64,000 nucleotides of DNA from Shewanella baltica (lineage in GTDB: Bacteria; Pseudomonadota; Gammaproteobacteria; Enterobacterales; Shewanellaceae): NCBI RefSeq assembly GCF_900456975.1, contig NZ_UGYM01000002.1:3906001-3970000 (forward strand), written 5' to 3'. Below are positions 5,836 to 30,224 of this stretch, in pieces (the first letter of the stretch is position 1; every line of letters begins with the position of its first letter). The position numbers were made by a program, and so were the translations under genes. Under the pieces are notes generated by a model that ran no database searches, was not told the DNA's origin, and worked only from the letters and a program-made list of their open reading frames with translations.

Positions 5836-6603
5836 GATTACATCTCCATCCCGGTGCCGGTGCCACTGGCACTGGCCTGTTTGGTCGTTTGCCCGCCTGC
5901 ACCCGTGCAGGTCAGAGACACTGAATACAGGGTGCCGTCAGCCGCCAGGCTGATACCAAAATTGCTGGTGCCCGTCAGGAGAATCGTGCCTTTATTGACG
6001 CCATTCAGGCTCTTGTTCACCAGCCCACTGCAGCTGTCGGCATAGCTGCTGCTCCAGGACAAGACGTGCCGGCTGCTGCCATTGGTCACTTGGGCACAGG
6101 TCGTCTTGGGCGGACACTCGTCACCGCTTGACAGGGTCTTCAGGCTCAGGTTGACCTGAGGCAGAGGATCGCTTGTCGGCGGAGGCAGAGGCGGGGGCGT
6201 GCCACCGTAGACTTCAGCCACCAGGGTCTTGCCCAGGTAGATGCTGTCGGTTTGGCTGCCATCGGCGTCCCGGCGGTGCAACAGCTGACCGCCTTGGCTG
6301 TAGACACTGTAACTGTTGGTGCCATTCTCCGTCTTGCGCACCCGGCGATTGTGGCCATCGTAGACATAGGCTATGCCCTTGGCCGCGGTCAGCTGCTGAC
6401 CGAGGTTATAGGCAAGGCTGTAACGACCGTTATGGGTCACATTGCCGCGGGCATCGTACTGATAACCATAGGCGTAGGCGCCGCTGAGGTTGTTGAGACG
6501 GTTGAGGCCGTTGTAGTGGTAACCTATGTTGGAGCCGTTAAGGTTGCGACTCATGATATTACCCAGACCATCATAGCTGTAGTCACCCGTGCCCCAGCGG
6601 CCA
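5445..6603. repeat. Duplicated Rhs segment, copy 2
   Basis: This is the partner of the direct repeat at 3290-4448. It covers the last YD repeats, the Pro-rich linker, the Ig-like segment, the stop/start junction and the Rhs core of the primary locus. Confidence 0.85.
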
Positions 6604-9600
6604 TCGGCGCTGAGCAAGCGGTCGACGCCATCATAGCTGAGGTTGTCGATGTCGTTGCTGCGGTCCACCCAGTCGATCAGGCTTTCCAGATTGTCATTGG
6701 CATCATAGCCGGGATCCAGCTTGTTCCTGAGTACGCCACTCTTGCTGTCGGTGATTGCATCTATTCGACCCGTAGTATCCAGTGCGACCTTGCGCACTAT
6801 GCCATTGCCATAGGTAAACTGCTTAATTTGACCGTTAGGATGATAACTCACGCCTGTTGCATAACTGCCAACTTTAGTGGGCTGCCCTAAAGCATTCGGT
6901 GCAAAATCAATCACTGCGCCTGAAGGATATTTCAGTGAACTTAAGTCACCAAGACTGTTGTACTCCCAATCTAAGACAAAATTACGCCCATCCAGCGACA
7001 GAGTTTCCTTGTCTATGACATTTTGGCTGTTGTACAGGTAGCTCCAACTCACTGGCCCTGCAAGCAAAGATATTAAATTGCCATTGGCGTCATAACTGTA
7101 GGTTTTATCAGGGGTGCTGTCGGGGAAGTTCTCGCTGCGCAGCTGCCCCAGATTGTCATAAGCTAACAAGGTTTTATGAATGGCAGGTACTGCGCCCGCA
7201 TCACAGCTTGTAGTAGAACCAATGGTACCTTGAGCTCGCCATATCTGTTGACGTTGACCATTATAGCCAAATGCGGCAATTCCTGTTTCAGGGCGTACCT
7301 GTTTACACAATTGTTGATAAGCATCATAGAGACGCGTTTCAGTGACATTACCTTGACGAATACTGGTAACTTGGTCAAAAAGGTTATACTCAATCGTAAT
7401 GTCATCACTATCAGGTGCTTCGATTAACGTCGGCTTATCAAAGGAAGGTTCCCCATAAGCGAGATAAGTTGTAGTTGTTGTATTATTCTCACCATCAGTT
7501 ACAGCAACTTTGTTACCTGCTAGGTATTCATAACTGCTGACACTACCATCACTAGTTCGAGTCTGATTAACAATACGACCCAGCACATCATATTCGGTCT
7601 CCATACCTATACGATTACTTGCATCAGAACTTGGAAAACTCGATAGCGACTGACGGTTTTCATGGTCATATGCCATGGTTTGATATCGAACTGTCGATGC
7701 GTTAGCTGAATCACGTTCACGGGTAAAGATAGGTCGCAATAAACCATCATGATAAATACGTTTTTCGTAATTACCTTGCGAAATTGTTTTCCGCAAACTT
7801 CCAACAGAAATACCACTACCAGCAATACCATCATCGTTCGTACTTACTGCCGAATAACTTATAATCTTATCCACCCATTTAGGATCAGCATAATCAATTT
7901 TAGTTAACCAACCTACAGGGTTATAATTATATGATGTTTTATTACCATTAAAGTCCGTAATACTTTGAACAGTACCATCACTGTTCATTATTTGAAGTGC
8001 AATAATGGTGTTCGAAGTACTGCCATTGGCTGTATTACAACCATCTGTTTGCGCGCAAGGTAAAGTTATTTTCTGAGGTTTACCTCGATAGTAATTCTCA
8101 AATTTCTCATAACGGCTAGAGCCATTATATGTCGATTGCCATAGCTCACCTTTAGTGTCATAAGAATAGGTAACGAGTAGACTGCCAAACACTTTTTGTT
8201 GATATGGCTTACCAAGTGTTGAATGATAGCTCAACTCTTGGTAAGCGCTGCCATACGCATCCGTATTCGAGAGATATTTTGCAGTTGGCAAATTTATCGC
8301 CCATTTAGTGGTATCGTGGAGGAAGGTGGTTTTTCGGTATAATTGGTAACTATTAACGCTATTGTAGAAATGCTCTTTTTGAGGCACCTCGTATGCATTA
8401 AAATCACTATAATCAGTAATGTACCAGTCCGAATTCTCGATAATTTTTGATTGTATTTGTCTTAATGGATAAATCTGCGCATCCACGTTTGACATGGTAA
8501 TGTCCGTATAAACGCCGTTATCACCTCGGGCTGTACCTTTAGAAAACTTATTGATTTTCCTACTTAACAGAGACAATTCTTTTGAGTAAACCTCCTCGCC
8601 GACAATTTGCCCTTCCGTATAATCAAAACGCTTGCTGATATAATACTTAGTGAAAGAACCATCAGGTGAAATTAGCTTTAATACGCGTAAATCGAAGCGC
8701 TCAAATCCTAAGTCAGATGGGACAGCGGCACATTCAGCAATTGACGAACATAGTGTGACTTTCTCATTATCTAAAAGCGCACCTGTATTCATTCGCGCAG
8801 CAGAAGTACTACCAGTGAATCCGGTACTTACCCAATGCATTCCATCGTTACTATACTGATAATGCCATGTACTGTTTTCAAGCCCTGGCCCTGAGATGGA
8901 TTTAGCTGTAACAGCAATACTGCCTCGACACGCATTGACATTATAAACAGTACTAGTGCCATTGATTGCCGCAGGCATATCGGTAGCGCCATGGATAACA
9001 AGCCCGACGTCGAGGGTTAAATTTGCACCATTCGGATGTTTGACTGTTAACTGAGAATTAGTGGGGAGCGTTGTAATGTAGTAACAATCGCGATTATAGT
9101 TCACATAATTACTTGTTGGAATTAAAACCCGAGGAGTGTATTCTGAAAACTCGGGAAAAGAATACTGCCAGTATGTGTTGTCTGGCAGTGTTACTCTGTT
9201 TAAATTATTGCTTGAATAGGTGTATGTCCACGTCTTATTCGTAGTACTCACTGAAATGACACGCTTAGATGAGTCGTACTGAAAAGTCATAATAGATTCT
9301 GATGCGCCGCCAACTGGCTTAAAATTCACGTTGACGAGTTTCTGATTATCATATGTGTAAGTGACTTTGTTCCCAGCTAAATCGGTAACGGAACTGACTG
9401 AATAGACGACTTTACCACGTCCCGCGGCCTTAAAGTTCTTCACAGCAGAAAACCCAGCAATATTTGACTTATCCTTTAGCTCATATTTCAATCCACTAGG
9501 GGCTTCGACATAAAAATATTCATTGCCCGAAATATCAGTTTTACAGCTAACAAGATAGCTTTCATTGACAATGTAGTTCGCTCTTGAATTGTTGTAGCGA

Positions 9601-10118
9601 GTAACTTGTCCTTTGGTTACGCCAGGGATAATCAAATTAGCGCCATTATAGAATTCCCACGGTTCAAAGCTTTGTCCTAGGGCACCCATTACCCCCCCGG
9701 GTGCCAGCAACATGCTACATGCGGTGGCCGAAGTGTAGTTATTGCTATAACGAGTATCGCCCGACAAGTAATTACTTTCGATCCTTGGTAAATCAATGCC
9801 CCAATCTCCGAAAGCTAATGACTTTTTGACGTTAACCCCTGTCAACTTGTCATAATAGCGAGACAAGTTGACACTCAAATCACTCGAAAGCGGGATGTTG
9901 ATATCATTTACACTGAACTCTATGGCTCCAGTCGCTAATGAAATTTTATCGCCGGCAAAATTAGAAGACAGCACATCTAAATCGCGAGTTGGAACCGCTC
10001 GTTCCAGATAAAATTCATTGGGTAGGCCATCTATGTCAGCCAGAACCGTTTGAGAGAGAAAAAAGCTGGATAAAAGTAAACATTTACAAATGAAAGCTTG
10101 CCTTGCGATTTTCGACAT
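5838..10118 (-). CDS. Large Sec-exported Rhs/YD-repeat protein
   Basis: A 1426-aa protein with a clear Sec signal peptide (MSKIARQAFICKCLLLSSFF, likely cut after LADI or nearby). Long arrays of YD-type repeats follow (YTYDNQKL, YSYDTKGELW, YSYDANGNL, YSYDGLGNI, YQYDARGNV) that normally build the hollow shell enclosing a toxin. Near the C-terminus a Pro-rich linker (TPPPLPPPTSDPLP) leads to a Cys-containing Ig-like segment before the stop. Unlike T6SS Rhs proteins it has no PAAR or VgrG-type N-terminus. The last 320 codons are markedly more GC-rich than the AT-rich upstream part, with the change around 6800, a sign of recombination. It heads the reverse-strand operon continuing to 2441. Confidence 0.85.
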   Translation of the reverse strand: MSKIARQAFICKCLLLSSFFLSQTVLADIDGLPNEFYLERAVPTRDLDVLSSNFAGDKISLATGAIEFSVNDINIPLSSDLSVNLSRYYDKLTGVNVKKSLAFGDWGIDLPRIESNYLSGDTRYSNNYTSATACSMLLAPGGVMGALGQSFEPWEFYNGANLIIPGVTKGQVTRYNNSRANYIVNESYLVSCKTDISGNEYFYVEAPSGLKYELKDKSNIAGFSAVKNFKAAGRGKVVYSVSSVTDLAGNKVTYTYDNQKLVNVNFKPVGGASESIMTFQYDSSKRVISVSTTNKTWTYTYSSNNLNRVTLPDNTYWQYSFPEFSEYTPRVLIPTSNYVNYNRDCYYITTLPTNSQLTVKHPNGANLTLDVGLVIHGATDMPAAINGTSTVYNVNACRGSIAVTAKSISGPGLENSTWHYQYSNDGMHWVSTGFTGSTSAARMNTGALLDNEKVTLCSSIAECAAVPSDLGFERFDLRVLKLISPDGSFTKYYISKRFDYTEGQIVGEEVYSKELSLLSRKINKFSKGTARGDNGVYTDITMSNVDAQIYPLRQIQSKIIENSDWYITDYSDFNAYEVPQKEHFYNSVNSYQLYRKTTFLHDTTKWAINLPTAKYLSNTDAYGSAYQELSYHSTLGKPYQQKVFGSLLVTYSYDTKGELWQSTYNGSSRYEKFENYYRGKPQKITLPCAQTDGCNTANGSTSNTIIALQIMNSDGTVQSITDFNGNKTSYNYNPVGWLTKIDYADPKWVDKIISYSAVSTNDDGIAGSGISVGSLRKTISQGNYEKRIYHDGLLRPIFTRERDSANASTVRYQTMAYDHENRQSLSSFPSSDASNRIGMETEYDVLGRIVNQTRTSDGSVSSYEYLAGNKVAVTDGENNTTTTTYLAYGEPSFDKPTLIEAPDSDDITIEYNLFDQVTSIRQGNVTETRLYDAYQQLCKQVRPETGIAAFGYNGQRQQIWRAQGTIGSTTSCDAGAVPAIHKTLLAYDNLGQLRSENFPDSTPDKTYSYDANGNLISLLAGPVSWSYLYNSQNVIDKETLSLDGRNFVLDWEYNSLGDLSSLKYPSGAVIDFAPNALGQPTKVGSYATGVSYHPNGQIKQFTYGNGIVRKVALDTTGRIDAITDSKSGVLRNKLDPGYDANDNLESLIDWVDRSNDIDNLSYDGVDRLLSADGRWGTGDYSYDGLGNIMSRNLNGSNIGYHYNGLNRLNNLSGAYAYGYQYDARGNVTHNGRYSLAYNLGQQLTAAKGIAYVYDGHNRRVRKTENGTNSYSVYSQGGQLLHRRDADGSQTDSIYLGKTLVAEVYGGTPPPLPPPTSDPLPQVNLSLKTLSSGDECPPKTTCAQVTNGSSRHVLSWSSSYADSCSGLVNKSLNGVNKGTILLTGTSNFGISLAADGTLYSVSLTCTGAGGQTTKQASASGTGTGMEM

Positions 10119-10661: not shown

Positions 10662-10994
10662 TTATAGCGATTGTAGTGCTTTCTTTATTGAAAATGGCCG
10701 AGTTTCATTGTTTGAAAAGTGGACTTTATAGCATGGGTAAGAGGCCCAAACCCCATTATTTTTACGTGGCTCGAAATCGACAAGAAAAGCTGTGATTAAC
10801 CGTCCATTTAGCTCCCAACCTGGTGATTTTTCACAGTAGCGAATATATAAATCTTTTAAAGCTTCAAACAGCTCACCTTGAGTGATCTGACTTTGATTCA
10901 TCAACTCTGGACGTTTTGACATAAAATATTCTAGTGCTTCACCTTGCTTTAAAAAATGTAGCCCTGAAATTGTTAATGGTTTCGCTTTTCCCAT
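10662..10994 (-). CDS. DUF3223-like protein
   Basis: A 110-aa soluble protein. The order of elements fits DUF3223-type domains: an N-terminal hydrophobic-aromatic strand and EALEYFMSKR helix, a helical middle (LFEALKDLYIRYCEKSPGWEL), then a strand with CYKVHFSNNETRPFSIKKAL. This domain is widespread in islands and also occurs in plant polymerase V, without an established bacterial function. The gene is in line with, and 27 bp downstream of, the GNAT-like gene at 11022. The family call is from memory of the pattern only. Confidence 0.5.
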   Translation of the reverse strand: MGKAKPLTISGLHFLKQGEALEYFMSKRPELMNQSQITQGELFEALKDLYIRYCEKSPGWELNGRLITAFLVDFEPRKNNGVWASYPCYKVHFSNNETRPFSIKKALQSL

Positions 10995-11845: not shown

Positions 11846-13255
11846 TCACTTATAAGAGGATATAGCCGTTTCAATAAGTTTAGTTGCGATCTGTACATTC
11901 GTTCCCTTGTACGTTAATTGTCGCAAGGCGTATGAATAAACTGTTGCTATGTATTCTCGTTCTAGGAAGCCATTTTCAGATTTCCATTGCCGAAGAAACT
12001 GGGCAACACGCGGTAACTTGCTCAGTGTAAAAAATTTGTCGTTATTAAACCAATTTTCAAACAGTTCTATATTTGGTGTCTGAATATCTTTAAGTGATGG
12101 ATGAAAATATTGACTTAACTCGAGTGTAACCACGTCTAACACAGATGGGGCCAATTTTATGTCTCCATAATCTATCAAAATTGGCTGAAGATCTTTCGAT
12201 ACTAGAATATTTAGGCCATGAAGATCTGCGTGTTGAATGCAGAAGTTTGCACTCAGATTTTTCCTCTCGAACTCATCTAAACCTAGCTGTTTTCTAATTT
12301 CAATAAGACTTTCAAATTTATGGTCTGGGCATATATTTTGTCTGATATCTCTAATAGAGATTTGTTGAGTAATCTTGGTTTGGCTCCAGTGACTGAGAAT
12401 GTCTTTTAGCCTTTCCAGAATAATTAGCGTGCTCTCTTCACAAGATAATAAATAGTTAAAGTAGTTTTTCTCATAATTTTTAGCAAATGAATAACAAATG
12501 CCTTTTCTACCAGCGCAACCTGCAACGTATTCACTAATTACATTAGGGAAACTACCAACCGGAAGTTTATTCACATGGCTCTGGAAGTTATTGCTTTCAA
12601 TATCAATTTTATGCTTTTCGTCTATTTTAAGTAGTGATGACCAAGGGAAGGGTGCTCCTTGAGTATTTACTAACTCTACTTGTAGAACTTTTGCGGATGA
12701 AAGGCCACCATTTAATGATTTTACCTTCGCGGCAATTGCGGCATGAGCCTTACAAAATATACGAATAACTCTTTTGTCAAACGCACTTAATTCACAACCA
12801 GTTTCTGATATTTCAATTGCTTCTATGGCGTTTAACTCTCTAGCTGCTTCAGAAAGCAGAGCTATCGCTGCACTGACTAACCTTTTGGGTTTCACTTTGA
12901 TAAGACTCTTTCGTGTACCATCCCAAAAAGTTGTAAGCTCTTGATCATCAACGAACTGATCTACAGCTTCTTCTGTTTGCTGCCCTGTAAGTATTAACAA
13001 AGGTGTTCCGGAATAATTTTCTCGAACGTGAGAAGCTAGCCGTAGCCCGATAGAAACATCAGGTACAGGATTCTCGAGGTTCAATGGAATTGCCAGATCA
13101 AGAACAATGTAATCAATGTCATGAGTGTTTAGGAGCTGTATAGCACTGTCATAGTACTGTTCGTGATATATATTATTCGCGCCAATTCCAATAAGTAGGG
13201 GTTTGACTGTTCGCTCAAACCAATCTTTGTCATCCTCGACCTGCAATATGTTCAA
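11846..13255 (-). CDS. Receiver domain fused to APH-like phosphotransferase
   Basis: A 469-aa protein. Residues 1-130 form a CheY-like receiver with acidic pocket D8/D9, phospho-acceptor D53 (IVLDLAIP) and T90 (LILTG). The C-terminal half has the catalytic loop of the aminoglycoside-phosphotransferase/kinase-like fold, HADLHGLN (H342, D344, N349) followed by IDYGD (D362-D365); K210 in SLLKID could be the ATP-binding Lys. There is no DNA-binding output domain. The start is a TTG overlapping the TGA of the histidine-kinase gene by 4 bp, with AAGGAAA just upstream. The coupling implies phosphorelay from that kinase to this receiver, which would gate the phosphotransferase. The substrate is unknown. 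Confidence 0.75.
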   Translation of the reverse strand: MNILQVEDDKDWFERTVKPLLIGIGANNIYHEQYYDSAIQLLNTHDIDYIVLDLAIPLNLENPVPDVSIGLRLASHVRENYSGTPLLILTGQQTEEAVDQFVDDQELTTFWDGTRKSLIKVKPKRLVSAAIALLSEAARELNAIEAIEISETGCELSAFDKRVIRIFCKAHAAIAAKVKSLNGGLSSAKVLQVELVNTQGAPFPWSSLLKIDEKHKIDIESNNFQSHVNKLPVGSFPNVISEYVAGCAGRKGICYSFAKNYEKNYFNYLLSCEESTLIILERLKDILSHWSQTKITQQISIRDIRQNICPDHKFESLIEIRKQLGLDEFERKNLSANFCIQHADLHGLNILVSKDLQPILIDYGDIKLAPSVLDVVTLELSQYFHPSLKDIQTPNIELFENWFNNDKFFTLSKLPRVAQFLRQWKSENGFLEREYIATVYSYALRQLTYKGTNVQIATKLIETAISSYK

Positions 13256-14139
13256 CTTAATTTCCTTTCCGGTATTTCAAAATAAAATTCGGCTCCATAT
13301 GGAGTCGAGTTTTTTAGATCCCATTGTCCACCCATAGAATTCACTGCTTTGTTAACGATAGCTAAACCTAAACCTCTATTTCCTGGTTTTGTGGTATGTC
13401 GACTTTTAAGCAGCACTTCGGTTTTAAATTGAAGTCCCAATCCGTCATCTATTACGGAAAACCAGATAAAGCCATCAGTTGCACTCCCTCGGACAATAAT
13501 TGGGTGTTTTTCTCGAATTGTAGATTGATTGCTCGATTCGACAGCATTTCTTAATGCATTAGATATGATTATTCTCAGTAAAGCAGGAGACAATACATAT
13601 GCGAGGTCTCTAGGAACGTCTATTTGGATCTCAACTTTAGACTTCGGGGATAATCTAGCTACTTCTGTTTGGATAACGTTAAAAACGTTTACCTCTTTAT
13701 ACGTCGGAGGCTGTTCAACTTTTCTCCAATCCTCAAAAATTTCAAGTACTTCATTTAATTTATCTAATTCATATCTGGTTTCCGAATGTAAAAAATCCGG
13801 TATCTCCTTTGCAGCGAAAACGGCAATGGAGCCTATTATCGGGTCGAGTTCATGGAGTACCTGACCTATGCTATCAGACACCGCTTCACTTTTTACGGCT
13901 TCGATATCAAAAACTTGTTCCAATACGTGAGACTGGGATTCTATAGCCACCGCAACTTTGTCAGAGTTAGCGATATCTAGTAGCGCACTTCGAATCCACG
14001 GCTGCCCAGTTTCAACGGCTGCATGCTCCAAGCACTTCTTTTGCTCAGGAGTTGCTGATTCTTTAAATGCTCTTAGCCTCTCAATTTGCTTCTCAGGGCT
14101 TAGGCTTTGTAAATCACTTAACAGCTGTTTTAGATCCAT
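13252..14139 (-). CDS. Soluble histidine kinase
   Basis: A 295-aa protein with no membrane segment. The N-terminal ~75 residues are helical and unknown. A DHp-like segment has H96 in VLHELDPIIG, and the HATPase domain shows the N box (NALRNAVES, 194-202), G1 (DDGLGL, 231-236) and G2 (GNRGLGLAIV, 253-262). It lies 3 nt after the ATPase gene and overlaps the receiver-kinase gene, so all three proteins are made together. The lack of a sensor or membrane domain suggests an intracellular cue, plausibly the ATPase partner. Confidence 0.8.
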   Translation of the reverse strand: MDLKQLLSDLQSLSPEKQIERLRAFKESATPEQKKCLEHAAVETGQPWIRSALLDIANSDKVAVAIESQSHVLEQVFDIEAVKSEAVSDSIGQVLHELDPIIGSIAVFAAKEIPDFLHSETRYELDKLNEVLEIFEDWRKVEQPPTYKEVNVFNVIQTEVARLSPKSKVEIQIDVPRDLAYVLSPALLRIIISNALRNAVESSNQSTIREKHPIIVRGSATDGFIWFSVIDDGLGLQFKTEVLLKSRHTTKPGNRGLGLAIVNKAVNSMGGQWDLKNSTPYGAEFYFEIPERKLS

Positions 14140-14142
14140 AAT

Positions 14143-15969
14143 TTAAACGCTATAAAATTCTGAACGTTTTTTAAATGCTTCCCTTCCGCCTTCCATAATC
14201 GCCTCAATAACATCTTTAACATGTTTATCTCCAGTAGACCCCATACACTTGATAAATCCACGCCGTCCATTCGAATCAAGGTTCACCACATTACTCGCGT
14301 TACCTAATACAGGGATATTTGCGTTGTGGCTAGATAATATAGTTTGAGACAAAGTAGCTCTTTGTTGAATGGCTTTTATCAAAGTTTGAGCAATAAACTC
14401 ATTGTCTAAATGATCCTCAGGCTGATCTATGATAAGTACCCTATTAGGATTTTCAAGAATGACAGAGAGAGCAACAGTGCAGCGCTGGCCGATTGACAAT
14501 TCTGAAATATTTTTATAAATACCATTATCTAAAAGAGTAAATTCAATAATATCCTCAACTTTAGCGACAAGTACATTTGCAATATCTTTCTCATTGAGGT
14601 ACGCGAGGATACGTGTTGCTCTATCTGCGGGAACACCTATTGCTGCGGCAAAATCCTCGTATTTGAGAGCATGCGAATAATAAAGTAACCATGCTGGAGA
14701 AATTTTATTAACAATTACAGGAATAAGTTCTTTATATTTTAAACCTGACCCTCGCAAAGTGTTTTCAAGAGCCTCGGCATACAAAACCAAGTTTGCCTGA
14801 GGTAATATCGAAGTTTTAATTGTTGGATATAGATTGAGATTAAGTTTTTGCACGACAGCATTGCGCTTCTCAAATATTACATTTTTGACACTGTATATTT
14901 TTTCAAGCAAGCTCTGGCATTGTTGGTAGGTTGTCGCTTGTTGATTCTCCTTGCTAAGCACCGATTGATTTAAGTTTTCTAGTTGAGCGATCTCTTGCTT
15001 TACTCGACCTAGCTCGCTAAGCACTGCACCAGCACCTTCAGTGAAGCTTTCGACTTCAGTTCTCTTTTCTCGTGCTGTTACATCAAGGGATAGTCTAAGA
15101 TTCATGAGCTGTTGATAAACGAATTCAATGTCGCTTAAGGTCGATACGTTGTTATGGATAACTTGGTTGATAGCCTGCCTATCTCCCTCGTAAACACCTT
15201 TCAGAAGTGTATTTAGATTAGAGGCTTCTACAGTATAAAGTTCAGGTAAAGCAGGCTCAGTAATCAATCCTGAAAGTTTATGAATTCTAGTTTTCAAAAT
15301 GCTTTTTATGGCGTCTAAATTTTGAATATCGACCATTAAGGTTGCTAAGCGGCCTTGTACCTCATTCAAATTCCTTTGGCTGTTTGCAACTGCTTGGTTT
15401 TGTTTTTCGAAATTAGCTTGCTGAGCTTGTAAAAGCTGCTCTCTTTGCCTTAGGGGGACGAGTAAAGCTGTTTTTTCTTTTAGTTCAGCAAGTTCTCTTC
15501 GTAATTGTATTAACTGTGCACTGCCACTTGCTAACTCTCTGTTTAAATTATTTATTAGTCCAATTTCATCTTGAATATCTGGGATAAAGCTATCTATTAA
15601 ATTCAGTTTTCCTTCTATATTCAGTCCTATGGTTTCAATTTCTGTCTGTGAAAATACAATCGGAGACATAAACGGCTCCGAGAAGATTGGCTGTTTATCC
15701 ATCGCTGAACGAGATACGTTGATAACTCGACCTTCGTGTTCAAGTTCAATAGAAACTCGACCAGAAGACTGTAAAATAGAAATAGCATGTCCACTTGAGT
15801 CATTGGAATTTACTGATAGGTTGCCTGAAGCGAGCCCGAACCGCAGCAACTCTATAATAGAGGTTTTACCAACACCTCTTCCTCCAATCAGTACATTGAG
15901 TCCTGAAGTGAATGATAAGTCTAGATTGCTAAAGAAGCCTTCCTCTACTTTTAAATTTTTTATAATCAA
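14143..15969 (-). CDS. SMC/ABC-type ATPase with long coiled coil
   Basis: A 608-aa protein. Walker A is GGRGVGKT (29-36), a Q-loop-like FSQTE lies at 107-111, and predicted coiled coil runs roughly 135-375. The ABC signature LSIGQR (491-496), Walker B VLIIDQPEDHLD (511-522) and an H-loop SSHNAN (H548) follow. The architecture matches RecF/SMC-like ATPases found in many phage-defence systems, in particular the DQPEDxLD subgroup. It is the first complete gene of the operon with the soluble histidine kinase and the receiver-APH protein, and I infer that it acts as sensor or effector for them. I cannot match the trio to a named system. Confidence 0.8.
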   Translation of the reverse strand: MIIKNLKVEEGFFSNLDLSFTSGLNVLIGGRGVGKTSIIELLRFGLASGNLSVNSNDSSGHAISILQSSGRVSIELEHEGRVINVSRSAMDKQPIFSEPFMSPIVFSQTEIETIGLNIEGKLNLIDSFIPDIQDEIGLINNLNRELASGSAQLIQLRRELAELKEKTALLVPLRQREQLLQAQQANFEKQNQAVANSQRNLNEVQGRLATLMVDIQNLDAIKSILKTRIHKLSGLITEPALPELYTVEASNLNTLLKGVYEGDRQAINQVIHNNVSTLSDIEFVYQQLMNLRLSLDVTAREKRTEVESFTEGAGAVLSELGRVKQEIAQLENLNQSVLSKENQQATTYQQCQSLLEKIYSVKNVIFEKRNAVVQKLNLNLYPTIKTSILPQANLVLYAEALENTLRGSGLKYKELIPVIVNKISPAWLLYYSHALKYEDFAAAIGVPADRATRILAYLNEKDIANVLVAKVEDIIEFTLLDNGIYKNISELSIGQRCTVALSVILENPNRVLIIDQPEDHLDNEFIAQTLIKAIQQRATLSQTILSSHNANIPVLGNASNVVNLDSNGRRGFIKCMGSTGDKHVKDVIEAIMEGGREAFKKRSEFYSV

Positions 15970-15990
15970 TGTGTTTCGCCCCCACGCAAA

Positions 15991-16235
15991 CTAGGTTTCA
16001 AGTAGATTAGTATCTAAGCCAGCTGATTTAAGACGAGACTTCAAGTTTCTCATCTTGCCAAACTCAGTTCCAATGCTTTTTTTAATACCAACACCGTCAC
16101 AGAACTCCTTGACTGTTTACTCTTAAGGTCATCAGCATACTTTAACATCTGTAGGTGTAACTCTGCTGTGAATTGATTTCTTGGTGCAACATTTAACGCT
16201 ATACGAATGTTTTCGAATATATCTTCAAGCTGCAT
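15991..16235 (-). pseudogene. Small ORF ahead of the ATPase operon, apparently frameshifted
   Basis: The first frame from 16235 gives 61 aa (MQLEDIFENIRIALNVAPRN and on) to a stop at 16050. A more convincing continuation sits in a second reverse frame from about 16118 to a stop at 15991: VKEFCDGVGIKKSIGTEFGK, then a basic helix ending GLDTNLLET. The join falls in AAACAGTCAAGG, so a single-base shift separates the halves of what would be a protein of about 80 aa. It lies 21 bp upstream of the ATPase and is probably the first gene of that operon. Real mutation, sequencing error and programmed frameshifting cannot be told apart here. Confidence 0.55.
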
Positions 16236-16832
16236 TACAGATCTCTGGATAGGTTGATTTTATATAATCTATCTAAATTATGTAAATAATCAAAGGTTTA
16301 TATTAATTTTTTTTATGAAGGTTATTTTGGTACCATTTTTCTTAGCCACCCATGATACAGAACATAACCTACAACACCTAAGTTGCATTAACCAAATGGA
16401 TTGTGGCTGAGGTTGATAGGGGATTCTTGCTGGTTATTTGTTGATTAGCGTATAATTAGTAAGGAATGGGGGCGATTTAGTTCAAGCCAGACCTGCTACT
16501 GCGGTGGATGAGGGAAGTTTGGCGTTGGACTGTTTTTGAATGTGGGCTATCTATAAATAGCTCAACTTGCCATGAAGTGCTGGCATCTATGGTGATAGTG
16601 CCGTTGTCGCTTTTCAAGGTTCACAGTAACAGGTTAGTTCTGGCAAAGTGCCCATGGGGCCTTTAAATAACTGCCCGAAATGGTGAGTTATGTTAAGCCC
16701 CCCAAAAAAAGATGAGACATGCATAACTTCTAAGTCGTATGAGCCCCTTTCACATTAACTTTTCTATAGGCAAAGCTTTACTTGGCCTATTTCCCTTTTG
16801 AACTGCGAAACGCACTTCGGGGCATATCCTCG
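16236..16832. other. Non-coding stretch between the ATPase operon and umuC
   Basis: About 600 bp without a supportable gene. The first 100 bp is very AT-rich and likely holds the promoter of the ATPase operon. The rest is of higher GC content with short remnants I cannot identify. A stem AGGCAAAG...CTTTACTTGGCCT at about 16769-16788 could help to end umuC transcription. Confidence 0.4.
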
Positions 16833-18089
16833 TTAGCACTTAATACGGGGGACACTTCGCCATTTAGTTGTGTATTGAGGTGTCAGCAAATCCCTCCGCA
16901 TTGCCCATTTTTGCTCTATGCCTTGAGCAGCGACAAACAGAGTATCACTGCCATAGCGTTGGTTAATGTGATCGAGTGTAAGCATTAGCGCTGGCTTTGC
17001 TGTTGGCGGATTGAACAAGTCTAATTGGCTGTGTCTTTCGCTCGCTAAGTCAATCAAACCTACGCCTATCTTGTAATAGCGTACACCTTCACGAAATAGC
17101 TTGGGTGCGGCTTCACATATGGCCTTAGTCAGCTCGACCGTACAGTTAGTTGGACAAGGAAAATGCACCATTGTTTTATAGCTAACAGGGCGCTCATCAT
17201 GGGGCGAGTTAGTAGCAAATAACAGCATAGTCTTGCAGACTGAGCCTTGCTTACGTGCTTTTGCTGCGGCAATACCAACATGCTTACTCAATGCTTGCAG
17301 TAATGACTCAAAATCAGTGATGCGCTCACCCATGCTCCTTGTCGAGAATATCTGCTTTTTATCAGCCCTTGCTTCATCCCATACCTTGCATACTTGGCTG
17401 TTAAGCTCTCGTACGGTGCGCTCGACTTCGATACTGAACTGTTTACGGGCTAATCCTGCAGGCATGTTAGCGAGGTCAAACGCAGTACGGATATTCATCA
17501 GTTCGAGCTTCGTGCTAATCCTACGTCCTATCCCCCAAACATCACCCACTGCAAGCTGCTTTAAAATAGCTGTTCTGTCTTGGTCATTGTCGATGACACA
17601 GACACCTTTATAGCCCTCTATTTTCTTAGCTGCATGGTTAGCTAGTTTCGCCAGCGTCAGGGTCTTAGCAATCCCCACACAAACAGGTAAACGGGCTTCT
17701 TTCCATACAGCGCGTCTTATCAATTGCCCTTGGGTACGGAGGCACTTTATTGCAGGGTAGCAGTTCTTAAATGACAGGAAGGTTTCATCGATACTGTAGA
17801 CATGCTGCTCAGGCGCAAATCGGCCGATGATATTCATCATCTTGCTCGACAAGTCAGCATACAGTTCATAGTTAGACGAACACACAATAACACCACGCTT
17901 AGCACAGAGTGCTTTGACTTGAAAGTAAGGCACAAACTTCTGAATACCCGCTTCTTTGGCCTGTCTATTGGCAGCAACAATCATCCCATCGTTATTACTG
18001 AGTACAACAACAGGCTTACCACGCCAATCAGGCCGGAACACCTGTTCCGCGCTACAGTAGAAGCTATTGGCATCGACTAGCGCAAACAT
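16833..18089 (-). CDS. umuC: DNA polymerase V catalytic subunit UmuC
   Basis: A 418-aa Y-family translesion polymerase, the usual length. The N-terminus FALVDANSFYCSAEQVF carries the first catalytic Asp (D6), and SIDETF (D101, E102) the others; a helix-hairpin-helix (VGDVWGIGRR) and little-finger region follow. With UmuD' it forms Pol V, which bypasses DNA lesions during the SOS response. It starts directly after the umuD stop with no gap. UmuDC copies of this kind are common on islands and plasmids. Confidence 0.95.
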   Translation of the reverse strand: MFALVDANSFYCSAEQVFRPDWRGKPVVVLSNNDGMIVAANRQAKEAGIQKFVPYFQVKALCAKRGVIVCSSNYELYADLSSKMMNIIGRFAPEQHVYSIDETFLSFKNCYPAIKCLRTQGQLIRRAVWKEARLPVCVGIAKTLTLAKLANHAAKKIEGYKGVCVIDNDQDRTAILKQLAVGDVWGIGRRISTKLELMNIRTAFDLANMPAGLARKQFSIEVERTVRELNSQVCKVWDEARADKKQIFSTRSMGERITDFESLLQALSKHVGIAAAKARKQGSVCKTMLLFATNSPHDERPVSYKTMVHFPCPTNCTVELTKAICEAAPKLFREGVRYYKIGVGLIDLASERHSQLDLFNPPTAKPALMLTLDHINQRYGSDTLFVAAQGIEQKWAMRRDLLTPQYTTKWRSVPRIKC

Positions 18090-18497
18090 CTACTTTTCAC
18101 TCAATATGGGACTTTTACGGTGGCAACGGATAGAACGAGTAATAACCCCTTCAATACTAAATTCATCGTATTCGTGAATGATGACAGGCTGGTGTTGTGG
18201 ATTGGAGGAAAGCAGTAAACGGCGGGGAATATCAATGATTTTGCAAACAAACTCCCTATTTAAACTGGCAACAATCACATCGCCATTACGCACTGTTTCA
18301 TGGCGGTCAATAATGAGTATATCTCCATCAAATATACCTTTACCTTGCATCGAATCCCCTTCTGCAAAGGCGAGAAAAGTCGAGCTTGGATGGTCAATCA
18401 ATAACTCATCCAAGCTTAGACCTAGCTGCGTGTATTCAGCAGCTGGTGACTCAAAACCTGTAATGCCTGCACGGGCAGGAATAGGGATAACACGCAT
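18090..18497 (-). CDS. umuD: Pol V accessory protein UmuD
   Basis: A 135-aa LexA-type self-cleaving protein. The catalytic Ser is in GDSMQGKG and the Lys in REFVCKII, aligned to Ser60 and Lys97 of E. coli UmuD. The cleavage region reads ITGFESPAAEY, so the scissile bond is Thr-Gly instead of the Cys-Gly of E. coli. RecA-stimulated self-cleavage removes the N-terminal arm to give UmuD', the active partner of UmuC. A LexA box lies 13 nt upstream of the ATG. Confidence 0.95.
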   Translation of the reverse strand: MRVIPIPARAGITGFESPAAEYTQLGLSLDELLIDHPSSTFLAFAEGDSMQGKGIFDGDILIIDRHETVRNGDVIVASLNREFVCKIIDIPRRLLLSSNPQHQPVIIHEYDEFSIEGVITRSIRCHRKSPILSEK

Positions 18498-18509
18498 AGC
18501 AATAAACCA

Positions 18510-18533
18510 CTGTGATTACATACAGTAATTATA
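18510..18533 (-). promoter_or_regulatory. umuDC promoter with LexA box
   Basis: On the reverse strand CTGTATGTAATCACAG (18510-18525) fits the LexA consensus CTG-N10-CAG. TATAAT (18528-18533) sits just upstream as the -10 element. The operator would cover the transcription start, giving tight SOS control. Confidence 0.85.
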
Positions 18534-20998: not shown

Positions 20999-23773
20999 TC
21001 AGTCGACAACTTCTAACCATTCCTCTGGTAAATCAAGGAAGATGCTCTTAGCCTTTGTACGTTTAACTTGCTTAGGACCCAATCCATAAACCGTAGTACC
21101 AGTTTCGTTAACAAATATCGTCAGTGCTTTCTTAGCCCGAGTAAAAGCGACATAGGTATTACATAGCTCTTCTTTGTATGTTGAAAGTAAGCTTTGACTA
21201 AATAAAGGATCGAATACATAGCAATGCTCAGCCTCTAATCCCTTCGATTTATGGAAAGTCAACACTTGCAGGGGTTTTCCTTCTGATGTATCAAATCCCG
21301 CTTTTAGTAGTGTATTTTTGATGCTCTCAACTTGTTTATTGTAACGACACAAAATGAGTTTATTTTCATAACAGCTATCATCTTCCTCTAAATCATTAAT
21401 TAACCAAGAAACGGCTTCATTAAACTTATCGCAGTATTTAACTCTAGCAAATCCAGTATCTTGCTTATCTGTCCTTAACATGCTTATTGAGCCGAGATAA
21501 TCGGTATTTATATCAAATCTTAGAATATTTGTTAGCTCAACGAGAGGCTCAGTCGTTCTATAATTACGTGTAAGTTGGTACCTGCCCCCGCCCTCAAACT
21601 TCTTCTTAAATTTAGTAGTTATCTGGCTGTTCGCGCCACGAAAACCATAAATTGATTGAGCGGGATCTCCCACACAAAAGAACTTAATATTGTTGTTATA
21701 TAAAGTTTTGATGATATGCCATTGAACGGCGTTAGTGTCTTGGATCTCATCGACGATCAAATGCTCATATCGATTTGTCATCTTCTCTAGAAAGTTAGCA
21801 TCGTTTAAAGCGCTTTTCATTTGTAAAAGCATGTCATTAAAATCGCGATACTTTCCTTCTTTATACTTGTTGTATGCCTTATAGATTTTGGCAAGATCAT
21901 CACTGAAATCGATTAAATCTGACGCTATCTTTTGAATAGTAAGTACAATATCTGGGTTATCGAAATCGGCCATGTGGCTAAAGATTGAAACACAACGTCT
22001 AGCTATTTCGTACTCATCATATTTTTTGACTATTTCACTGTTTTCGTCAATAAGTGACTTTATCGCATTCAACACCTCACCCGAACTCAGAACCTTGAGC
22101 TTTTTGTCTTTGTCTAGAGAACTGTTACACCAACTGCTAAACGTGCTGACAACCATATCATCTGAATACAGCTTTTGAGCATTTAGGCGGGATCTAAACT
22201 CATCAGCTGCCTTATTAGTAAAGGCAAGTACACAAATAGCACTAGGCTTGATTCCTTTTTCTAACAAATGTCTAACGCGCTCAATAATCAGACGTGTTTT
22301 GCCCGCTCCGGGGCAACCCTCAACGTAGATAGCAGGTTTCTTAGACTTAACTATTTTATTAACAGAATCACAGTTCAATAGCTGCTTTTTAATAATTTTT
22401 TTAAGTCTCTCACGGGCTTTTGTTACCGATTTTTGATAGTTCCTCTTAGGCTTAACTTCAAGCTTCTTGGTGGGGCTCTGAATAGCCTTTAACAGTGCCT
22501 GCCAGCGTCCATTGAATGCTGTATTGAGTAGGGAGGTATCAAAAGAATAATAAAGTTTTTTACCTTTTGTCCTACGAAATATAGCGCTCCATTTAGCCGA
22601 TAACGGATCTATCGATTTATCTTTAACTAATCTCTTTAATTCTGTATCCGTTAACTCTTCAAGATACCGAGGATTTAACAATCGAACATTACCGAGTAAG
22701 GACTTAACGGAATACGTACCTAGTTTACTAATAGGATTAGTATCAAGCCTTTCACGGGACTCTAGACGGTAGCTACACGCCTGAGAAGGGAACCACTCAG
22801 CAACGCCATCTAGCTCACCTGCGGCGCGCTCAAATGACCCTGCGAGCCCCTTAATTGCAAGCTCTATAAACTTCTTGTTTTCTTTAAGTGTCTTGTCATA
22901 GCCAATCAGATGGTGGCTATATCTGTCACCTATATAAGTAGTTTCTGTAGCCCAACTTTTATACTTAGGGAAACATTCACCTTTAGATACCCTATTATTA
23001 CTCGTTTTCATAAAAGCGAATAACTGAGATACTCCATACATGATATATCCTGTATGAAGTTCTAATAACAAGGCATTATCAAGTAATTGCTTATAACGGC
23101 GGGGCCCTAATACCGATTGAAATTGGTAAAGCATGAATGATATTAAAGGTAGACTAACACGAGTTGGAATAAACTCTATTTCACAGTTATAAACTAAAGC
23201 CCGTTCATTATTACGATCATGGTCAGGATTAGCTAGAAACACATTAATAAATCTATAGTCATCATTATCAGCAAACAATTCAAATCTAGATGTAAAAAAC
23301 GGGCGTTTATCGCCTCGTTTGAAGCCTTTATTCGCATTACCAACCTTATGATTTTTTACTATTAATCTAGCGTTTCTATCAATAGTTTTAACACAAGTTA
23401 TACCACTATCTTTATCTAGAAGTTTATCTATATCTGTTGATGTCAGAGATAACCCTATGCGTATATAGTCAACATCAACTGTATCTTCGCTGATGTTATT
23501 GATTGCTGCTTTAATGAGACTGTGTTGGTACTCAACTATTTCTCTATCTCGCAGCACACTCATGATCTTAGCGATATTAGTTGTATAGTTTAAAGTTTTA
23601 GGATTAGTTTTTTCAGCTATTTTACGATTAAGTTCTGGCTGAACCAATGGGTATTTAGCATTACGTGATACATTAAAAATTTTACTCGGAACGATATTAC
23701 GAAAGAATGCAGTACCCTTGGACTTGATAATAGGTGACTTAGAATTACTCTTAGATAGCTTAGAACTACTCAT
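20999..23773 (-). CDS. UvrD-type SF1 helicase with large Rep-like N-terminal half
   Basis: A 924-aa protein. Residues 480-900 are a complete SF1A helicase: Walker A GCPGAGKT (486-493), Ia AFTNKAADEF, II DEIQD (675-679), III GDPAQSIYGFRGA, IV NYRTTEP, V TFHKSKGLEAEH and VI YVAFTRAKK. Residues 1-460 are not helicase. They contain YIGDRYSHHLIGYDKTLKE and, 40 residues on, YRLESRERLD, which resembles the Y-x-G-x-R...YDK and R-x-E-x-R signature of rolling-circle initiators of the Rep_trans/filamentous-phage type. A fused initiator-helicase would be unusual. It faces three iterons and is very AT-rich. The helicase part is certain; the Rep-like part is inference. Confidence 0.8.
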   Translation of the reverse strand: MSSSKLSKSNSKSPIIKSKGTAFFRNIVPSKIFNVSRNAKYPLVQPELNRKIAEKTNPKTLNYTTNIAKIMSVLRDREIVEYQHSLIKAAINNISEDTVDVDYIRIGLSLTSTDIDKLLDKDSGITCVKTIDRNARLIVKNHKVGNANKGFKRGDKRPFFTSRFELFADNDDYRFINVFLANPDHDRNNERALVYNCEIEFIPTRVSLPLISFMLYQFQSVLGPRRYKQLLDNALLLELHTGYIMYGVSQLFAFMKTSNNRVSKGECFPKYKSWATETTYIGDRYSHHLIGYDKTLKENKKFIELAIKGLAGSFERAAGELDGVAEWFPSQACSYRLESRERLDTNPISKLGTYSVKSLLGNVRLLNPRYLEELTDTELKRLVKDKSIDPLSAKWSAIFRRTKGKKLYYSFDTSLLNTAFNGRWQALLKAIQSPTKKLEVKPKRNYQKSVTKARERLKKIIKKQLLNCDSVNKIVKSKKPAIYVEGCPGAGKTRLIIERVRHLLEKGIKPSAICVLAFTNKAADEFRSRLNAQKLYSDDMVVSTFSSWCNSSLDKDKKLKVLSSGEVLNAIKSLIDENSEIVKKYDEYEIARRCVSIFSHMADFDNPDIVLTIQKIASDLIDFSDDLAKIYKAYNKYKEGKYRDFNDMLLQMKSALNDANFLEKMTNRYEHLIVDEIQDTNAVQWHIIKTLYNNNIKFFCVGDPAQSIYGFRGANSQITTKFKKKFEGGGRYQLTRNYRTTEPLVELTNILRFDINTDYLGSISMLRTDKQDTGFARVKYCDKFNEAVSWLINDLEEDDSCYENKLILCRYNKQVESIKNTLLKAGFDTSEGKPLQVLTFHKSKGLEAEHCYVFDPLFSQSLLSTYKEELCNTYVAFTRAKKALTIFVNETGTTVYGLGPKQVKRTKAKSIFLDLPEEWLEVVD

Positions 23774-25101: not shown

Positions 25102-26037
25102 ATGACTACAGCGACCCCTTATGCGCTGTATTTGAGCCGCCTGTCTATTAATAGTCAGCGTTCAATCAGCTCACAAATGCGCAGTATTGCGCGACTCATG
25201 CAGTGGCAAGAAGACTGTCTCGATGACAAGCTGTGTCAGATTGACTATCAACAAGCGCTGCAAATACGCGCAATGATGACCCATGCGCAGTGGTCAGCGC
25301 GTTCTATTAACCGCGCCATGATAGCGATTAAGAATATCGTCAAAGTGGCAGCCTTGATGAACAAAGCCGATTTATCGCAGGTCGCTAACTTGCAGACCAT
25401 AAATCAAGTGAAGCACGGTGAGCATCAAGGTACGCCGTTAAGCACCGAGCAAGTGACCGCGGTATTGGATTACTGCAAAACGCAAAAAGGCACCTTTGCT
25501 ACCCGTAATCTGGTGATATTCAGCCTGTTCTTGGGTACTGGATTGCGCCGCAGTGAGTTATCGGCGTTGATGCTGAGTGACTATGATGCCAACTTGCATA
25601 CCCTGACGGTAGCAGTGGGTAAAGGTAACAAGAGTCGCACCTTGTTCTTACCTGAATGGGTAGAGAAAAATCTGTTGGCATGGCTTAAGTTACGTCAGCG
25701 CCAGCAGGGTTATTTAGTGTGTAAGTCGACACTGACAGGCAAGCTTAAGCTAACCGAGCCAACCACCCCAACGGCTTTATATCGGTTAGTTAAAGATACC
25801 TTGTATGAGCTAGGAGTGGATAACGTATCACCCCATGATTTACGCCGTACCTTTATTACTCGCTTGCTTGAGCAAAATGTGGATATCAATACCGTGCGCC
25901 AAATGGCAGGACACGCCGATATCAGTACCACTACCATTTACGATAAACGTGACCATGCGTTTATGAAGCAAGCCGCTGCGATGCTGGATTACATTCCGCC
26001 TGAAAAGCCTATTAAACGGGGGCGCGGCAGTCGATGA
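25102..26037 (+). CDS. Tyrosine recombinase (XerC/D-like integrase)
   Basis: A 311-aa protein with an N-terminal SAM-like core-binding domain (about 1-100) and a catalytic domain. The catalytic residues are present: Arg in GTGLRRSEL, Lys in GKGNKSR, HDLRR, GHA and the nucleophilic Tyr in TTIYDKRD. It catalyses site-specific strand exchange for an integrative element. A 4-bp ATGA overlap couples it to the AAA+ gene downstream. Unlike the neighbouring AT-rich genes, its composition resembles the chromosome. Confidence 0.9.
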   Translation: MTTATPYALYLSRLSINSQRSISSQMRSIARLMQWQEDCLDDKLCQIDYQQALQIRAMMTHAQWSARSINRAMIAIKNIVKVAALMNKADLSQVANLQTINQVKHGEHQGTPLSTEQVTAVLDYCKTQKGTFATRNLVIFSLFLGTGLRRSELSALMLSDYDANLHTLTVAVGKGNKSRTLFLPEWVEKNLLAWLKLRQRQQGYLVCKSTLTGKLKLTEPTTPTALYRLVKDTLYELGVDNVSPHDLRRTFITRLLEQNVDINTVRQMAGHADISTTTIYDKRDHAFMKQAAAMLDYIPPEKPIKRGRGSR

Positions 26038-28067
26038 TAAACGTCAAACCCATCGCTAAACACGCTAAGCATTGTTATTGCCTTGCGACTCAAATCGCCG
26101 AAGACTTATTGCTGTCAGCCGTCAATTATGGCTTTGAATATATGCCGTCCTATGCGATTAACTCGTTAGTAGGTATCAAGCTGCAACATGGCATTAACCA
26201 TGATATCGACAGCACCCTAGCGCTGTTTCCGCTAAAGGATAATTACCCTGTAATGGCAGAAACGGTGCAGCACAATGCGCGGTTTCTGTGTGAACTGTTT
26301 AAGCTAGATGCCGCGATGAAACCCATGATGGTGCTCATCATCGTGCTCAATGCCAATGCGGGACTCAAAGAGTTGCTTAACCTGCTAGCTGACCATGATA
26401 CGGATATTCTCATTCATTGGTTAGAGCAAGAAACGGGACTCAACAGTGATGATATCCATGAGCAGCTAGAACCTTTAGCCCGTAATCGCTTTATTGAGGG
26501 AGCAGCATTACTCCTACCGCATTTGTTGAGAATACCGGAGCCGTTTAGGGTATTGCTGGTGACTGAAAAGCTCACTCGCCGTGAATCCTTGCTCGCGCCG
26601 ATTATCAAACACAGCCCTACTGCACAGTTCAAGCTTAAACAATTTGAGCATGTGAATGCCGATTTAGTGTATCGCTATCTAAGGGCTGCCATGACTCAGC
26701 GGCTTAAAGGCGTTAACATTTTACTCTATGGGGCAGCGGGAACAGGCAAGACCGAGCTATCTCGCACCTTGGCAAAGGCACTGCGGCGCAGCTTAGTGGA
26801 AGTACAAAGTGTGCAGTTTGAGGATGGTAAAGTGACTGAGGAGTTCTTAAGTAAAGAGCCGACTAGCCAACGCTTAACCTACCTTAATCTACTGCAAAGC
26901 TTGCTCGATGGCTCAGATGAAAGCCTGTTATTGGTTGATGAATGCGAAAGCGTGTTTAAGCATGCCGATGAGCATTACTCTAAAGAAGGCTTAATGCGCT
27001 TACTGGAAACCAATCCTGTACCTGCTATTTGGATTACCAACCATGTATCGCAACTGGAACCAAGCTACATACGGCGCTTTAAGTTAGTGATGGAAATCCC
27101 TGTGCCCGATGAAGCCTTTAGCTTTGCCATGAGTAAAACCATGCTCAAATCGCTTAAGGTGTCGGATGCGTTTCGGTTGGTGTTAGCCAGTAAATCTAAT
27201 GCTGCTCCGGCTTATATTGCGAACGCCGCCCATGTGGCAAGTACCTTAGCCTTAACGGGGGATGAGGCTGAAGTTGTGGTATTGGATGTTATTGATGCCA
27301 CTCTTGAAGCCTGTGGTGAAGAGCCGCCAGCGGCTAAATATCAAGGCCAGCTCAGCTTTGACCCGAGTTGCTTGAACCTTAACGCCATCGACGGACAAGA
27401 TGCACATACGATTATCAGTGATATCGACACCGCGATAGCCAACAGCCTCCCTGTCAGAGTGTTACTCAATGGCCCCCCAGGTACAGGTAAAACAGGCTGG
27501 GTACATCACTTAGCTGAAACCCACGGTATGGATATCATGCACATCAAGTGCTCTGATGTACTCAGTAAGTATGTCGGTGAGAGCGAGCAGAACATTGCAG
27601 CGCTGTTTAGAGAAGCGCACAGAACAAAGAAGCTAATGCTCTTTGATGAAGTCGATAGCTTGCTCAGTCAGCGTGAGAGCGCTCAAGCGCAGTATGAAGT
27701 GCAGCTCATCAACGAACTGCTGTCACAGCTTGAATGCAACACCATGCCCGTCTTTGCAGCGACTAACGCACTCAGCGCAATCGATAGCGCAGTGATGCGC
27801 CGCTTTGACTTCAAACTGACCTGTGACTATCTAACGGAGCAACAGCGCCAGACCTTGTATAAGCAAGTATTGGGTATCACTAAGTTAAACCAAACCGAAG
27901 CAGACCAACTTCACGCACTACAACAATTAACGCCCGGTGACTTCGCTATCGTAGCAAGGCGCATGTTATTTCAACCTAACCACAACCACAGAGCCACCGC
28001 TATTACCCTGTTAACCCAAGAAAACAACCGTAAACAAGCCACGCGCCGCATTGGCTTTATCAACTAA
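26034..28067 (+). CDS. Tandem AAA+ ATPase
   Basis: A 677-aa protein with two AAA+ modules. The first has Walker A GAAGTGKTE (near residue 236) and Walker B LLVDECESVF; the second has GPPGTGKTG (near 482) and LMLFDEVDSLL followed by the RR-type end MRRFDF. The N-terminal ~200 residues are helical and unknown. AAA+ proteins of this form are found in integrative-element cargo beside RadC-like genes. The substrate is unknown; remodelling of a protein-DNA complex is plausible. It is co-transcribed with the integrase. Confidence 0.8.
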   Translation: MINVKPIAKHAKHCYCLATQIAEDLLLSAVNYGFEYMPSYAINSLVGIKLQHGINHDIDSTLALFPLKDNYPVMAETVQHNARFLCELFKLDAAMKPMMVLIIVLNANAGLKELLNLLADHDTDILIHWLEQETGLNSDDIHEQLEPLARNRFIEGAALLLPHLLRIPEPFRVLLVTEKLTRRESLLAPIIKHSPTAQFKLKQFEHVNADLVYRYLRAAMTQRLKGVNILLYGAAGTGKTELSRTLAKALRRSLVEVQSVQFEDGKVTEEFLSKEPTSQRLTYLNLLQSLLDGSDESLLLVDECESVFKHADEHYSKEGLMRLLETNPVPAIWITNHVSQLEPSYIRRFKLVMEIPVPDEAFSFAMSKTMLKSLKVSDAFRLVLASKSNAAPAYIANAAHVASTLALTGDEAEVVVLDVIDATLEACGEEPPAAKYQGQLSFDPSCLNLNAIDGQDAHTIISDIDTAIANSLPVRVLLNGPPGTGKTGWVHHLAETHGMDIMHIKCSDVLSKYVGESEQNIAALFREAHRTKKLMLFDEVDSLLSQRESAQAQYEVQLINELLSQLECNTMPVFAATNALSAIDSAVMRRFDFKLTCDYLTEQQRQTLYKQVLGITKLNQTEADQLHALQQLTPGDFAIVARRMLFQPNHNHRATAITLLTQENNRKQATRRIGFIN

Positions 28068-29553: not shown

Positions 29554-29672
29554 CCCTCAAAACACTCAAAACCACCGCAAAAGTCACATCTCAAATAAAA
29601 TGAAATCGACTACACTGATGCTCAAGCAGGAAATGTCTTCCTTGCTTGCGCTAAAGAATAAGGAGCAACCCC

Positions 29673-30221: not shown

Positions 30222-30224
30222 ATA
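30183..30224. repeat. 42-bp direct repeat, copy within tRNA-Leu
   Basis: The 5' half of tRNA-Leu from the start to the anticodon loop, repeated exactly at 30326-30367. Confidence 0.9.

Follow-up and report, generated by a model that had tools for sequence, protein, structure and literature searches.

Two-component systems are mostly regarded as regulators of genes, and an SMC-like defence ATPase as a protein with an effector of its own. Among the described systems that come closest to the operon reported here are the following three. Detocs reportedly consists of a histidine kinase (HK), a receiver fused to a purine nucleoside phosphorylase and a separate receiver gene. TrlF/Ppl-type proteins contain a similar ATPase, and Ppl bears the label 'anti-phage protein' in NCBIfam. 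The family TCAD9 (PF19974) is assigned to the vWA-MoxR ternary conflict systems (PMC10910872). The operon under study was found in Shewanella baltica (assembly GCF_900456975.1, contig NZ_UGYM01000002.1, positions 3,906,001-3,970,000 of the forward strand; this whole stretch of 64,000 nt is called the window, and all positions are window coordinates, 1 being its first letter). It runs on the minus strand from 15969 to 11846 and encodes an SMC/ABC-type ATPase, a cytosolic HK and a fusion of a receiver (REC) with a kinase of the aminoglycoside phosphotransferase (APH) fold. The operon joins the two kinds of machinery and ends in an enzyme of the antibiotic-kinase fold. We regard this trio as a mobile three-protein signalling system, with defence as its most likely role. 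If the trio is immune in function, it would provide a kinase effector under phosphorelay control, for whose substrate one can search, and a His/Asp switch that can be disrupted one residue at a time; it would also permit a test of whether a single sensor module is reused with different outputs.

Three intact and tightly coupled genes

Tight coupling of the three genes had been claimed in the first-pass annotation of this DNA, and the coordinates bear it out: 3 nt separate the ATPase and HK genes, and the HK and receiver-kinase genes overlap by 4 nt. The motifs named there (D53 in the receiver, HADLHGLN and IDYGD in the kinase, the H, N and G boxes in the HK and DQPED in the ATPase) all stand at the positions given. 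All three open reading frames (ORFs) and their catalytic motifs are intact, so that the trio cannot be read as a dead remnant. Its G+C content is 38.2%, compared to 43.8% for the window. The coordinates of the genes, domains and motifs are collected in Table 1.

The ATPase is matched in Pfam by AAA_23/AAA_21. Its best NCBIfam match is TrlF (NF045780; 225.5 bits against a curated 350), which covers model positions 290-943 of 944 and is followed by Spaf_1101 and Ppl; in PADLOC-DB 2.0.0 it partially matches Ppl, mad3 and AriA, among other families. The protein begins at the ATPase part, and no PHP domain was matched in it by Pfam. By sequence homology it corresponds to the last two thirds of a TrlF/Ppl-type protein and lacks the PHP part. 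Among 120 ATPase homologues, the Walker A lysine K35 is kept in 115 of 115 ungapped sequences (36 of 38 in the trio set) and the signature residues S492 and G494 in 119 of 119. ABC ATPases normally have a catalytic glutamate at Walker B. By alignment to the ABC consensus, a glutamine, Q516, occupies this place in all 119 ungapped homologues and is invariant in 14 sequences that represent three output types. Because of this substitution the ATPase is expected to be a slowly hydrolysing ATP switch and not a motor; as a point to the contrary, the nearby Glu518 might replace the catalytic glutamate.

The HK is composed of a four-helix N-terminal part (residues 3-57), a DHp domain (79-142) and a CA domain (148-290). 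Its H, N, G1 and G2 boxes are intact (H96, N198, D231xG233xG235 and G256xG258), as are the Asp and Lys of the receiver. HATPase_c is its Pfam match; no membrane or known sensor domain was found by Pfam, and no PADLOC-DB family matched it at E 0.1.

The receiver-kinase exceeds the Pfam cut-off for TCAD9 as a whole protein in two stretches (43.6 bits, cut-off 40), and in a six-frame search its single best TCAD9 stretch stays below the cut-off. The same holds for its Response_reg match and for the APH family PF01636 (21.4 bits, cut-off 23.2), which some homologues do carry. PADLOC-DB offers a weak match to the receiver only (PDC-M60C, E 1.3e-4, and likewise PDC-M60B). D53 is invariant in 91 homologues; K210, H342, D344 and N349 of the kinase are found in 91 of 91 and D362 in 89 of 90 ungapped ones. 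The claim that a phosphotransferase replaces the DNA-binding domain as the output of a two-component system is supported by fold searches, in which APH(3')-Ia (E 7.4e-7) and APH(2'')-Ia are the nearest solved structures to the kinase domain in Foldseek. Small-molecule and peptide substrates are not separable by fold: LxmK, LicA, APHs and an N-acetylhexosamine kinase lie within about 2 Z units. In an Anaerolineales locus (L047), a run of receiver proteins, three of them weakly matching the receiver-kinase profile, stands beside a 1107-aa protein with an HK match, and receiver-kinase fusions may have users beyond the trio.

Table 1. Positions of the trio, its domains and motifs, and context features in the window
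Feature	Position	Strand	Remarks
Gene 1, SMC/ABC-type ATPase	14143..15969	-	608 aa, TTG start
Gene 2, cytosolic HK	13252..14139	-	295 aa, ATG start
Gene 3, receiver + APH-fold kinase (TCAD9)	11846..13255	-	469 aa, TTG start
Walker A GGRGVGKT, residues 29-36	15862..15885	-	ATPase
ABC signature LSIGQRC, residues 491-497	14479..14499	-	ATPase
Walker B/D-loop IIDQPEDHLD, about residues 511-522	14404..14439	-	ATPase; Gln at usual catalytic Glu
Receiver domain, residues 1-124	12884..13255	-	Gene 3; D8, D53, T90, K124
APH-fold kinase domain, residues 148-469	11849..12814	-	Gene 3; G184, S186, K210, H342, D344, N349, D362
Promoter-like site upstream of operon	16257..16286	-	Consensus match only; frequency in region not above shuffles
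UmuD (18090-18497) and UmuC (16833-18089)	16833..18497	-	Context, outside the system; directly upstream
Tyrosine integrase of island	25102..26037	+	Context; near tRNA-Leu 30135-30221

Recurrence and mobility of the trio

A lack of co-occurrence of the genes outside their own locus had been set beforehand as one outcome that would refute the system, but the trio does recur: when genome contigs were scanned once with the alignment of the receiver-kinase, 46 loci were obtained, 37 of which contain the three genes in the same order on one strand. Four further loci (L046-L049) contain other APH-fold kinases that match only weakly. With starts taken from the longest ORFs, the first junction lies within -60 to +20 nt in 33 and the second in 32 of the 37 trio loci. 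Pairwise distances of the three proteins are correlated (Mantel r 0.861, 0.833 and 0.829, compared to at most 0.331 in 1000 permutations).

The system had been drawn from 11846 to 16235. The trio stands, and a 61-codon ORF on the minus strand (16235-16050) was excluded because no counterpart precedes the ATPase gene in the 37 trio loci (by eye). This ORF lies just before the ATPase gene with another frame open behind it, and may be a broken small gene. A conserved fourth gene was rejected as well; the short ORFs that precede the ATPase gene in these loci share no common member (by eye).

According to the submitters' titles, the 37 trio hosts belong to five phyla (Pseudomonadota 23, Actinomycetota 8, Chloroflexota 4, Acidobacteriota 1 and Campylobacterota 1). 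In the ATPase tree a Campylobacteraceae metagenome-assembled genome groups with Erwinia, and Pseudomonas groups with Phytobacter (100/100), which suggests transfer. Full-length gene 3 is present in one of 60 relatives, the genome studied here, and three others have receiver-only matches. The ATPase was found in two of 295 genomes of the order and in one of 369 of the class sample, the own genome being included each time. Near-identity DNA searches of Escherichia coli complete genomes with the Enterobacter and Phytobacter trios found none. The trio is thus rare, and it is mobile.

In Rheinheimera pacifica (L007, whose contig is apparently identical to that of G304/L086) the trio sits in a Tn7-like transposon, a call based on the adjoining genes for a TnsA-like protein, a Mu/rve transposase, a TniB-type ATPase and TniQ. 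Two of 11 IMG/VR loci are trios, as judged by match and gene geometry. One (L054) lies in a lambdoid prophage, where it is flanked by P, O and CII and, at its opposite end, by NinB, RusA and Q; the second (L055) follows a tail-fibre gene, UmuDC and what by eye is a transposase, in the same flank layout as the Phytobacter trio (L017). Gene 3 is also matched by 47 plasmid records, 36 of them from Piscirickettsia. Three plasmid regions were opened: those of Klebsiella and Vibrio have all three genes, and the Piscirickettsia version looks decayed, since its HK is shortened and no annotated ATPase adjoins it.

Relatives of the ATPase also occur with other outputs. Distant forms (28-32% identity) were found at 13 places in 11 genomes beyond the own one, among 398 genomes of the phylum. 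At all eight places fetched (6 genomes; L104-L111), such an ATPase is followed in the same order by an HK and a receiver protein of about 305 aa, whose C-terminal 120 residues differ from the kinase and whose phosphoacceptor Asp and Lys are invariant (8/8); one genome contains three copies of this second branch. By eye the output domain resembles an OmpR-type winged helix, but no solved structure was matched by a profile of it (best E 1.8, an unrelated nuclease). Close to second-branch loci are encoded a type I methylase subunit (L108), a RapA/SNF2-like helicase (L107), a UPF1-type helicase (L105) and, by eye, WYL-type regulators. In the P2-like Yersinia phage vB_YenM_42.18, an 872-aa fusion of PHP (PF02811, E 6.5e-7) and ATPase is encoded between the replication gene A and the portal gene Q (L088, 5215-7833); its ATPase aligns with the whole trio ATPase (25% identity, E 2e-26), and it is likely a carried defence gene. 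A TrlF of the same genus (in one of 60 relatives; L085) shares mainly C-terminal motifs with the trio ATPase (E 6e-9); its N-terminus is PHP-like by eye only, with no Pfam match. Fourteen chosen ATPases of three output types have in common DQPED, the signature Ser and Gly, HN.N and EGG..AF..R..Y. To judge from the PHP-fused ATPase in the phage and the HK and differently ending receiver of the second branch, one ATPase front end serves several outputs.

The trio lies on an island that, in sequence comparison, begins beside tRNA-Leu, because the similarity to a second genome (G015) ends near 29601. A genome of the same genus (G002) is 93% identical over 34265-24971, which spans tRNA-Leu, DUF2787, RadC, an AAA gene and the integrase; beyond 24971 the two carry different cargo and share only 467 bp that match the 3' end of umuC. 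Behind this end G002 has ORFs of 179, 174 and 632 aa, the last of them SMC-like, which are ABC-3C-like by eye (L120/L122). Next to them it encodes a HerA-type helicase, which matches a solved chain at E 8.5e-32, and a SIR2-like protein, which matches 8j4u_A at E 3.3e-11; SIR2-HerA is a defence pair. The trio therefore occupies a position at which this relative keeps other conflict genes.

Part of the description of the island as rich in conflict genes stood. Near the trio are encoded UmuDC, a helicase of the UvrD type, a protein with RHS repeats and the tyrosine integrase, but no complete PADLOC system was found among the nine window proteins scanned. The helicase domain makes up the second half of a 924-aa protein (20999-23773, minus strand) with a long N-terminal part that has no Pfam match, and the protein is GajB-like in PADLOC. 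The RHS-repeat protein of 1426 aa lies at 5838-10118 (minus strand), and a 110-aa ORF at 10662-10994 (minus strand) is a weak full-length match to PADLOC HamC2 (DUF3223, E 4e-4). Outside the island, past tRNA-Leu, a homologue of the superinfection-exclusion protein SieB is encoded at 32689-33300 (minus strand). Part of tRNA-Leu recurs as an exact 42-bp repeat (30183-30224 and 30326-30367), perhaps the scar of an old insertion or a lost tRNA copy. tRNA was the only RNA family detected in the region.

Proposed function and alternatives

With the genes, their predicted folds, catalytic residues and order, their correlated divergence and their cargo status established, the parts and the gene order point to a chain that would lead from ATPase to HK, receiver and kinase. 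The ATPase, an SMC/Rad50-like clamp with a coiled coil, would sense a sign of invasion, probably an unusual state of DNA or nucleoprotein. Once engaged, it would switch on the soluble HK, whose short helical N-terminal part may dock the ATPase, and H96 would be phosphorylated. The phosphoryl group would then pass to D53 of the receiver, as the invariant His, Asp and Lys and the coupling of the genes suggest, and the phosphorylated receiver would free or align the APH-fold kinase. The kinase would in turn phosphorylate one specific small molecule or protein, by which the growth of the infected cell would be stopped or the invader disabled. Defence is preferred because the trio is rare and mobile, travels as prophage and transposon cargo, contains a Ppl-type ATPase and has SIR2-HerA in the sister island.

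Several results weigh against this reading. The ATPase is split over two ORFs in two of the 37 trio loci (L018 and L029). Gene 3 stands without ATPase or HK in two loci (L033, L036), and two contigs of one genome (L040, L041) encode an HK and, in split form, gene 3, with no ATPase detected; in one more locus (L039) the contig ends before gene 3. On account of these loci, gene 3 may work alone or be in decay in some places. The correlation of distances can also stem from shared host phylogeny. None of 50,697 INPHARED phage records matched gene 3 at E 1e-5, and no SOS-box-like site was found in 13001-17997, which bears also on the first alternative below. Finally, an enrichment of defence genes was rejected at the 16 of 37 trio loci with contigs long enough for a control stretch. 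Controls were placed at round positions on the same contigs, and 116 neighbour ORFs were compared with 116 control ORFs (one 1975-aa ORF of 117, without Pfam match, was left out of the neighbour scan). PADLOC families numbered three among the neighbours, with one member each, and 41 among the controls, many being redundant PtuA models. Only mobile genes stand out among the neighbours (Phage_integrase 5, Resolvase 2); no mobile family has at least two members among the 25 families listed for the controls, where single members are possible.

The main alternative, which we consider unlikely, is a circuit that serves either the host or the mobile element and responds to DNA damage or replication stress instead of invaders; the ATPase would sense damaged DNA, and the kinase would tune metabolism or a repair protein. 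It would suit an SMC/Rad50-like ATPase and the lack of PADLOC enrichment just described, and UmuC/UmuD are found close to the trio both in the window and in three other loci (L017, L055, L066), with a weaker UmuC match in a fourth (L023). However, UmuC/UmuD were seen in only these four of the 50 relative loci fetched (flanks up to about 8-15 kb), and the genome has five UmuDC copies, the other four of which are followed by ordinary genes, a GTPase-like pair, RHS-like ORFs and phage genes (by eye). The trio is, moreover, missing from nearly all relatives, is found on a transposon, a prophage and plasmids, and has no SOS-box-like site of its own. SOS control was rejected, since such matches occur in the window at chance level (24 compared to 22.0 expected). 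An exact SOS-box-like site at 18510-18525 belongs to UmuD.

Cargo status and conserved catalytic residues in the kinase would equally fit a toxin-like or addiction module, in which a growth-arresting kinase is restrained by receiver and HK until loss or disturbance of the element sets it free. This is improbable: the trio consists of three large proteins, of which the ATPase has kept its ATP-binding motifs and the HK and receiver their His/Asp sites, and no common small antitoxin-like gene precedes the ATPase gene. Receivers without HKs in ternary systems have been proposed to respond to nucleotides (PMC8195603), and the receiver might be such a switch, not fed by the HK, which would then be an ATPase scaffold; we give this very little credence, as an HK with conserved H96, N, G1 and G2 boxes adjoins gene 3 in 37 of the 46 loci. 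An inducible drug-modifying enzyme, in which the relay turns on a kinase that inactivates an antibiotic, is favoured by the two APHs nearest to it in structure and is the least probable of these explanations, if only slightly.

A wider proposal builds on the defence reading and is put forward tentatively, as a little less probable than its opposite. The SMC/TrlF-type ATPase and the HEAT-like HK would form a general front end that senses invaders and has exchangeable outputs (PHP in cis without HK, receiver-kinase, or receiver with another domain), and the trio would be the first immune case of a DNA-clamp ATPase that signals through a His-Asp relay to an APH-fold kinase acting on a metabolite or protein of the cell.

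Comparison with described systems

PADLOC-DB 2.0.0 matches no such three-gene set, and no description of the trio is among the literature matches listed; this absence is weakly tested, and the 2020 classification of ABC ATPases in conflict systems may mention it. Like canonical two-component systems, the trio has an HK with DHp and CA domains and a receiver with D53, T90 and K124, but it has no known sensor or membrane domain, its output is a kinase instead of a DNA-binding domain, and an ATPase gene stands in front. The kinase shares the fold and the catalytic HxD....N...D residues with APHs, LxmK and the choline kinase LicA, from which it differs by its fused receiver, 7-16% identity and its own invariant residues past the second Asp.

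The trio had been held distinct from Detocs, and this agrees with the features compared, as far as Detocs is reported to have them. Both combine a cytosolic HK with a receiver fused to an enzyme domain, but in the trio an APH-fold kinase takes the place of the purine nucleoside phosphorylase, there is an SMC-type ATPase in addition, and a stand-alone receiver gene is lacking (no further minus-strand ORF of at least 80 aa lies within 11846-15969, and the two ORFs behind have no receiver match). TrlF/Ppl proteins share homology over the full length of the ATPase, the DQPED Walker B and the C-terminal EGG..AF..R..Y; unlike them, the trio ATPase lacks PHP and is accompanied by separate HK and receiver-kinase genes. 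The TCAD9 match of gene 3 recalls the vWA-MoxR ternary systems, but the operon has no vWA or MoxR gene, and no such partner was found among ten window proteins. The AAA protein encoded at 26034-28067, at a distance of 10 kb, matches bpMoxR only below the cut-off. Detocs, TrlF/Ppl and the vWA-MoxR systems thus each differ from the trio in at least one of the features tested for membership.

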